The position numbers and the translations under genes were made by a program. A stretch of 64,000 bases of DNA, from positions 1-64,000 of the forward strand of contig QCKO01000003.1 of NCBI GenBank assembly GCA_003215315.1. The letters run 5' to 3'. Origin of the DNA: Prochlorococcus sp. AG-409-P19 (GTDB lineage Bacteria > Cyanobacteriota > Cyanobacteriia > PCC-6307 > Cyanobiaceae). This document shows, piece by piece, positions 20,694-21,939 of the stretch. The notes beneath the pieces were generated by a model, which did not search any database, was not told where the DNA came from, and saw only the letters and a list, made by a program, of their open reading frames with translations. How positions within the stretch are numbered: position 1 is the first letter of the stretch; every line of letters begins with the position of its first letter.

Positions 20694-21005
20694 TCAGTCC
20701 TTTTGACCTAAAAAGTTGCCATTACCCAAAGCAGGCTCAACTTCACGATGAGGACGAGCAATGATGTGAGCTGCAACAAGTCCGTCTCCTACTCGCTCAC
20801 AAGCATCTGCACCAGCGCGAACAGCAGCATTAACAGCACCTGTCTCACCACGAACTAAAACAGTTACGTAGCCACCACCAACAAATTCGCGACCAATCAA
20901 GCGCACTTCGGCGGCCTTGGTCATTGCGTCAGCAGCTTCAATCGCAGGAACTAGTCCGCGTGTCTCGATCATGCCGAGAGCAATACCCATAGTTTCGCTA
21001 GCCAT
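20694..21005 (-). CDS. csoS1A: Major carboxysome shell protein CsoS1
   Basis: A 103-residue hexameric BMC-domain protein forming the flat facets of the shell. It has GIALGMIETRGLVPAIEAADAM, RLIGREFVGGGYVTVLVRGE and ADACERVGDGLVAAHIIARPH. It is the first gene of the leftward operon csoS1-rbcL-rbcS-csoS2-csoSCA-csoS4A-csoS4B-csoS1E-acRAF. It is the only short single-BMC paralogue here, so it must supply most facets. The 337-bp region upstream carries a repeated 15-bp element. Confidence 0.97.
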   Translation of the reverse strand: MASETMGIALGMIETRGLVPAIEAADAMTKAAEVRLIGREFVGGGYVTVLVRGETGAVNAAVRAGADACERVGDGLVAAHIIARPHREVEPALGNGNFLGQKD

Positions 21006-21021
21006 GTCCTATTTCTGTAAA

Positions 21022-21036
21022 GGGATGGAATGTTCA
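21022..21036 (-). repeat. 15-bp direct repeat, copy next to the csoS1 start
   Basis: GGGATGGAATGTTCA on the plus strand (TGAACATTCCATCCC in the operon direction), ending 16 bp before the csoS1 ATG. An identical copy lies 235 bp farther upstream. The flanks of the two copies do not match beyond the core. Confidence 0.7.
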
Positions 21037-21256
21037 GGAAAGAGAATGACCTGCGGAGAACCAATAAGTCAAGGGAATCAGACAAATACGGCCATCACAG
21101 TTTTTACTGTCATTGATAAGGGAAACTTATCACCCTTGCTACGACAGTTAAGAAACACTCCTGCCATCGTGGTCAGCGCTTGAAGATATTGCATTGCGTA
21201 AACCAAGTTCGCTGGTTATTTTTACTTACCGAGGCAGGCCCCTAGCTATTCGTCAG

Positions 21257-21271
21257 GGGATGGAATGTTCA
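21257..21271 (-). repeat. 15-bp direct repeat, distal copy
   Basis: The second identical GGGATGGAATGTTCA, about 250 bp upstream of csoS1 and 72 bp before rdgB. Its first bases also form the right arm of a CCCCT...AGGGG inverted repeat. A shared protein-binding site for the divergent genes is one possible explanation. Confidence 0.65.
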
Positions 21272-21342
21272 ACCAATCCTGTCTCAAAATATTTTTTTAA
21301 TTGAAATAGAGCCTTTAGCTGTAAAAATAGTTAGAACAAAAT

Positions 21343-21939
21343 ATGGGTTACTTGGAAAGACCGCTTTTAACAATTGCGAGTGGAAATGCTAGAAAGGTGG
21401 CCGAGATTGAAGCAATGCTTGGGCCTCTGCCTATAGAAGTACGCAGGCAACCAAAAAGTTTAGAAGTCGAAGAGACGGGATCAACTTATTTTGAAAATGC
21501 ATTATTAAAGGCAAAAGCAGCCGCGAAAATTACTGGTAGTTGGGTCATTGCTGATGACTCTGGACTTGAAATAGATGCATTAAATAATGGTCCAGGCATA
21601 TATTCGGCCCGTCTCGCGGAAACAAATCAAAAAAAGATAAAAAAGGTTCTTCAAGCCTTAGGAGATAGCCCTTATCGAAGTGCTCGATTCTGCAGCGCAA
21701 TGGTTTTCTGCAATAAAAAAGGTGACTTAATTAAAGACTCTTTCGGGATCTGCTGGGGAGAAATACTAAAAGAGCCTGCTTATAAAAACGGGGAGTTTGA
21801 ATCACTACTTTGGATTCGGGAAACGAACTGCACTTATGGAGAAATGAATAATGAACAATTAACCAAACATGGAAGCAGGGGAAAAGCCGCTAGATCGCTA
21901 GCCCCATATTTACTAGAAGCATTAGGCCTAACAAAATAA
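21343..21939 (+). CDS. rdgB: dITP/XTP pyrophosphatase (Ham1/RdgB)
   Basis: A 198-residue nucleotide-pool cleansing enzyme that hydrolyses ITP, dITP and XTP to monophosphates. It begins with LTIASGNARKVAEIEAML, the family substrate loop (T/SxNxxK), then VEETGSTYFENALLKA, ADDSGLEIDAL with the metal-binding Asp residues, and the C-terminal SRGKAARSL. Length is normal. It is divergent from csoS1 and converges with csoS1D, so it physically separates these two shell genes. No functional link to carboxysomes is implied. Confidence 0.93.
   Translation: MGYLERPLLTIASGNARKVAEIEAMLGPLPIEVRRQPKSLEVEETGSTYFENALLKAKAAAKITGSWVIADDSGLEIDALNNGPGIYSARLAETNQKKIKKVLQALGDSPYRSARFCSAMVFCNKKGDLIKDSFGICWGEILKEPAYKNGEFESLLWIRETNCTYGEMNNEQLTKHGSRGKAARSLAPYLLEALGLTK

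Follow-up and report, generated by a model that had tools for sequence, protein, structure and literature searches.

A conserved structured RNA upstream of rdgB is predicted to pair with the leader of the carboxysome shell gene csoS1 in picocyanobacteria

The window, i.e. the whole stretch of 64,000 nucleotides that was analysed from Prochlorococcus sp. AG-409-P19, carries csoS1, the first gene of a carboxysome operon, and the divergently oriented rdgB. The region between them contains two identical copies of the 15-mer GGGATGGAATGTTCA (Table 1). A preliminary description of this DNA had reported both copies and had placed one at the start of csoS1 and the other near rdgB, within a CCCCT/AGGGG hairpin; the identity and both placements were confirmed. 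These are the sole exact copies in the 1.16-Mb draft genome, where the next-best match to the 15-mer has two mismatches and no third site lies within one mismatch. The copy on the csoS1 side ends 16 nt 5' of the csoS1 ATG, the A of which is at 21005 on the minus strand. The repetition is non-random, as had been supposed, since a repeated 15-mer was obtained in 2 of 20,000 first-order Markov shuffles of the 337-bp segment. The flanks had been described as unrelated. This does not hold: the similarity continues over 20 nt (90% identity), and the adjoining hairpin is also complementary to the ribosome-binding region of csoS1, weakly in this species and clearly in relatives.

Table 1. Features of the csoS1-rdgB region (positions in the window)
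Feature	Position	Strand	Remarks
csoS1, carboxysome shell protein, 103 aa	20694-21005	-	Predicted target gene; first gene of the carboxysome operon
csoS1 Shine-Dalgarno AGGA and ATG	21003-21010	-	Predicted second contact of the RNA
Repeat copy B, putative target site TGAACATTCCATCCC	21022-21036	-	Predicted 5' end of csoS1 mRNA
Predicted csoS1 promoter TTGACT-N18-CATTCT	21043-21072	-	TTGAC invariant in the alignment; -66 to -70 from the ATG in all lineages shown
Palindrome TGATAAG-N5-CTTATCA, candidate csoS1 regulator site	21114-21132	-	Conserved, -126 to -130 from the csoS1 ATG
Predicted RNA promoter	21194-21222	+	-35 TTGCGT (21194-21199), 17-nt spacer, -10 TATTTT (21217-21222); predicted start about 21229-21231
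Structured RNA element, three-way junction	21231-21285	+	Predicted to be a regulatory RNA or the beginning of the rdgB leader; covariance-model match, covariation in 78 relatives
P1 helix, 5' arm GAGGCAGG	21231-21238	+	Both sides change in 7 of the 8 P1 pairs; 95.3% of cells are paired
P2 hairpin CCCCT-loop-AGGGG	21239-21259	+	From folding; loop and 5' arm complementary to csoS1 ribosome-binding/start region (weak here, clear in relatives)
Repeat copy A, putative antisense loop GGGATGGAATGTTCA	21257-21271	+	UGGAAUGUUCA nearly invariant
P3 TGG/CCA, presents loop AATGTTCAA	loop 21264-21272	+	From folding
P1 helix, 3' arm CCTGTCTC	21278-21285	+	Pairs with the 5' arm; one G-U (an A-C mismatch on the other strand)
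rdgB, XTP/dITP diphosphatase family (Ham1)	21343-21939	+	Starts 57 nt after P1

The intergenic segment 21006-21290 shares 76-79% identity with most relatives of the same genus. This conservation stops just beyond the rdgB-side copy, and none was seen between P1 and rdgB in the relatives compared. Among 110 csoS1 upstream regions, nearly all those of Prochlorococcus and most of those of marine Synechococcus have the core GAACATTCC twice, once close to the csoS1 start and once about 231-238 bp further upstream. The same holds for copies or near-copies of the repeat among the examples examined, with a spacing of about 230-240 bp. Thus, both copies are present in close relatives, the absence of either having been proposed as an argument against a functional pair. 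The palindrome of this region, which we take to fit a site for a LysR-type (RbcR/CbbR-like) regulator, is a candidate only. A peptide reading of a 42-aa frame (21078-21206, minus strand) was set aside, the conserved features being instead structural and promoter-like.

Diverse members fold into one and the same three-way junction, made up of P1, the P2 hairpin and a small P3 that presents AAUGUUCAA. The rdgB-side copy sits between the arms GAGRCAGG and CCUGUCUC. A first MAFFT alignment, in which divergent Synechococcus rows were misaligned, revealed no structure with RNAalifold. The covariance model R1 was built from a stem-trimmed MAFFT alignment (A2) of 34 sequences. It scores the element in its own genome at 64.7 bits (E 1.3e-15), the window's own sequence being one of the 34 in the model. 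In an alignment of 78 R1 elements, which leans towards the structure because it was fitted to it, 12 of the 16 pairs change on both sides, 90.5% of the cells pair, 133 cells are double changes and the covariation score reaches 0.353; slid structures score no higher than 0.122, and 0 of 500 shuffles attain the observed value. The smaller alignment A2, which was not fitted, agrees, with changes on both sides in 10 of 16 pairs. Taken singly, the elements have modest energy z-scores (-0.4 to -2.7).

The differences between lineages also point to one strand: most are G-U pairs on the plus strand, which would be A-C mismatches if read on the minus strand (74 G-U vs 24 A-C cells on the plus strand; binomial p 4e-7, uncorrected for relatedness). 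At the level of sequence comparison, the element is established as a conserved structured RNA of the plus strand. In about half of the distinct relatives, a motif TTGnnn-17-TATTTT has its end 7-8 nt 5' of P1, and in others the distance is 10-11 nt; we infer that the RNA is transcribed from this predicted divergent promoter. The regulatory character initially proposed for the repeat and its tie to stem-loops are therefore retained, while its interpretation as operator half-sites or as a promoter duplication is not, one copy being part of a covarying plus-strand RNA with its own predicted promoter.

The loop sequence GGGAUGGAAUGUUCA is the reverse complement of UGAACAUUCCAUCCC, where the csoS1 mRNA is predicted to begin. 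The csoS1-side copy is placed at this 5' end because it follows a conserved minus-strand promoter, CTTGAC-N18-CATTsT. In the window, the antisense match between copy A and copy B is 14 nt perfect as scored and 15 nt by sequence. Co-folding revealed a second contact, between the loop side of P2 and the Shine-Dalgarno/AUG region of csoS1. Both contacts were compared with partners swapped between genomes, tests that overstate significance because the lineages share ancestry: the extension positions of copies A and B from one genome fit each other better than those from different genomes (p 0.0002), and, for P2 and the Shine-Dalgarno/AUG region in 44 non-redundant lineages, own partners reach a local score of 16.6 vs 14.3 for swapped ones (z 6.7), with an energy z of 6.9 and 0 of 50,000 swaps as good. 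Own P2 and leader partners also outscore reversed leaders and the opposite strand. For example, different lineages carry the matching pairs UGUCUAC/GUAGACA, UAUGUC/GACAUG, CAUUGCC/GGCAAUG, CUUGCGUA/UACGCAAG and CCUGGAG/CUCCAGG. In the window species the P2 contact is weak, with a longest run of 6. In NATL-like relatives the two copies differ at one base, which leaves a 10-nt contiguous match. The C/T vs T/C asymmetry between the copies has the expected direction and is not significant (about 10 vs 4, hand-counted, p 0.18). Two genomes, one of them G072, have one loop base changed (GGACUGUUC) and an unchanged csoS1 leader, possibly reflecting a decaying copy.

As in a base-pairing RNA, complementarity to the leader is conserved and its partners co-vary, and the structure is conserved on a defined strand. 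On these comparisons, pairing between the RNA and the csoS1 leader is probably real.

The RNA was found as a single copy in 198 of the 272 family genomes of at least 90% completeness (22 of 34 genera). In about 30 genomes in which both positions could be compared, it and csoS1 lie on opposite strands and at most 2 kb apart. In Cyanobium-like and related genomes, it is located 1.6-1.9 kb from csoS1, still on the opposite strand, and the intervening DNA carries sbtA and sbtB, both identified by reading the protein sequences. At four Cyanobium/Synechococcus-like loci, sbtA-sbtB are oriented like csoS1. In these arrangements csoS1 keeps its promoter and usually the palindrome, which is also present in most of the genomes shown with this insertion, and the RNA remains with rdgB. 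The antisense match is still 14-16 nt across this separation. That the match is kept over the sbtA-sbtB insertion speaks for an RNA whose target is an mRNA that it does not overlap, and against both a promoter duplication and operator half-sites.

The exact core GAACATTCC is found in the csoS1 leader of 36 of the 37 genomes with the RNA vs 7 of the 22 without a detected match, which is an association and not a count of independent events, because the genomes are related. At least two of these seven (G072 and G075) carry a diverged element below the model threshold. In genomes without the RNA, a search for matched diverged repeats found none. Five loci with no detected RNA have diverged leader cores (GAACCTCC, GAACTTTCCGCC, GAACTTCCGCC) in which GAAC is kept. 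Among 20 other GAACATTCC sites checked in five Prochlorococcus-type genomes, no second conserved target was found, most of the sites lying within coding frames or antisense to them. In a genome of the same genus, a TGAACATTCCATTC site (G110:C1:1072240) that appears to lie in non-coding DNA could be an extra target or due to chance. Furthermore, GTGGAATGTTCAACC occurs exactly in 34 viral contigs, which may reflect host sequence, copies of the RNA in phages or chance.

Considered as a whole, the repeat pair probably consists of an antisense loop and its target, and the RNA would be a regulator of csoS1 translation, probably a repressor. Because the repeat forms an RNA loop on one strand and the start of the csoS1 message on the other, pairing of the two RNAs is predicted, which would set the amount of shell protein. 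The RNA would be transcribed from its own predicted promoter, either as a short sRNA or as the start of the rdgB leader. Contact would begin between the P3 loop AAUGUUCAA and GAACAUUCC, at the 5' end of csoS1 mRNA. The duplex would then grow to a length of about 14-16 bp, and pairing of the P2 loop region with the Shine-Dalgarno sequence and AUG of csoS1 would follow. Ribosome loading on csoS1 would be blocked and less shell protein made. Repression is favoured because the pairing covers the Shine-Dalgarno sequence and the AUG, and we lean slightly towards it rather than activation; pairing at the mRNA 5' end could alternatively stabilise or activate csoS1.

The position of the RNA raises the question of its relation to rdgB. 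This gene lies downstream of the RNA in nearly every genome, its start being usually 45-80 nt after P1, and no conserved terminator was found after P1 among the genomes compared. Such an arrangement would suit a cis-acting leader of rdgB, i.e. a protein- or ligand-binding 5' UTR for which the csoS1 match is secondary. This is nevertheless unlikely, given that the csoS1 match covaries at two sites and still spans 14-16 nt at separations of 1.6-1.9 kb, that rdgB is up to about 630 nt away with the element intact (locus L180) and that the interval between P1 and rdgB is not conserved. The probable joining of the RNA to rdgB in many genomes, together with the greater abundance that we would expect for a shell protein mRNA, would also fit a regulation in the reverse direction, in which the csoS1 mRNA, being abundant, would bind the rdgB leader and control rdgB, or a mutual co-regulation. 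We hold this to be improbable: the pairing covers the ribosome-binding site of csoS1 and is well upstream of the rdgB start.

In the same way, two near-identical direct sites, one of which overlaps the predicted csoS1 start, could be read as DNA sites for one transcription factor between divergent promoters, and the palindrome between them suggests that a regulator acts in the region. Such an operator pair is very improbable, since one copy is inside a covarying RNA with a G-U strand bias, the distance between the sites reaches 1.9 kb in some genomes and the complementarity between P2 and the Shine-Dalgarno/AUG region would be left unexplained. Neither an operator pair nor a promoter duplication is supported, because the spacing is not fixed (230-240 bp or 1.6-1.9 kb) and the copies are placed differently relative to their promoters; furthermore, the csoS1 promoter (TTGAC...CATTCT) adjoins one copy only. 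A classical cis-antisense RNA was rejected as well: the element lies upstream of the predicted csoS1 start, at a distance of about 195 nt here and of up to 1.9 kb in relatives.

The regulatory RNA acting on csoS1 would be either an sRNA or the first part of the rdgB leader, and it is probably joined to rdgB in many genomes. Directly after P1, a terminator-like U run (AAAATATTTTTTT, 21286-21298) is clear in the window species alone among those compared. A more ambitious reading, which is possible although rather doubtful, is that the 5' leader of the rdgB mRNA acts in trans on the divergent csoS1 and controls shell-protein translation across picocyanobacteria, coupling nucleotide-pool sanitation to carbon fixation. 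If this were true, the untranslated region of one mRNA would set the translation of its neighbour's shell protein and thereby link the two processes.

It should be stressed that a large part of the carbon fixed in the ocean is fixed by Prochlorococcus and marine Synechococcus, and that little is known about how they control carboxysome shell levels. A conserved RNA, its predicted target, the contact bases and the compensatory changes can now be named.

No family was found in Rfam 15 at gathering or relaxed thresholds, the best overlap being RNaseP_bact_b with 14.5 bits vs a gathering threshold of 97; this agrees with the earlier remark that nothing known has this sequence, as no known family with the repeat was found. 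None of the new Yfr RNAs in Table 1 of PMC2518516 is next to csoS1 or rdgB. No RNA at the csoS1-rdgB locus was found in PMC1242208, nor in the main texts of PMC7368042 and PMC3898218; a 2014 Prochlorococcus dRNA-seq study may already map the transcript. The text of a 2026 review of CO2-concentrating mechanisms (PMC13249358) mentions neither sRNA nor small RNA. Yfr103 was rejected as a match, being 290-328 nt long and present in seven copies in Synechococcus CC9605 (PMC5069720).

The RNA family and its carboxysome target appear to be new, while the kind, an antisense RNA beside its target, is known. In E. coli, IstR-1/tisB and OhsC/shoB each consist of a divergently encoded antisense RNA adjoining its target, a toxin gene. 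Like them, the present RNA is a non-overlapping neighbour transcribed away from its target, with a short complementarity to the target's 5' region; unlike them, the target is a carboxysome shell gene and the RNA is a three-way junction that may be joined to rdgB. OxyS of E. coli represses fhlA by a two-loop kissing interaction and is encoded far from it. The likeness here is in the pairing layout, i.e. two loops of one RNA and two mRNA sites around the ribosome-binding site, whereas the present RNA lies near csoS1. Among picocyanobacterial base-pairing RNAs, Yfr1, Yfr2 and Yfr10 (PMC6778093, PMC2518516) have another position and another structure. A Yfr10 pull-down enriched csoS1 and csoS2 mRNA in MED4 (PMC6778093), which suggests that csoS1 is also controlled by this different RNA. 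RblR, the antisense RNA of rbcL in Synechocystis, is reported to be a positive regulator (PMC5306279); unlike it, the RNA described here does not overlap csoS1, and common to both is a cyanobacterial carbon-fixation gene under, in the present case predicted, RNA control.
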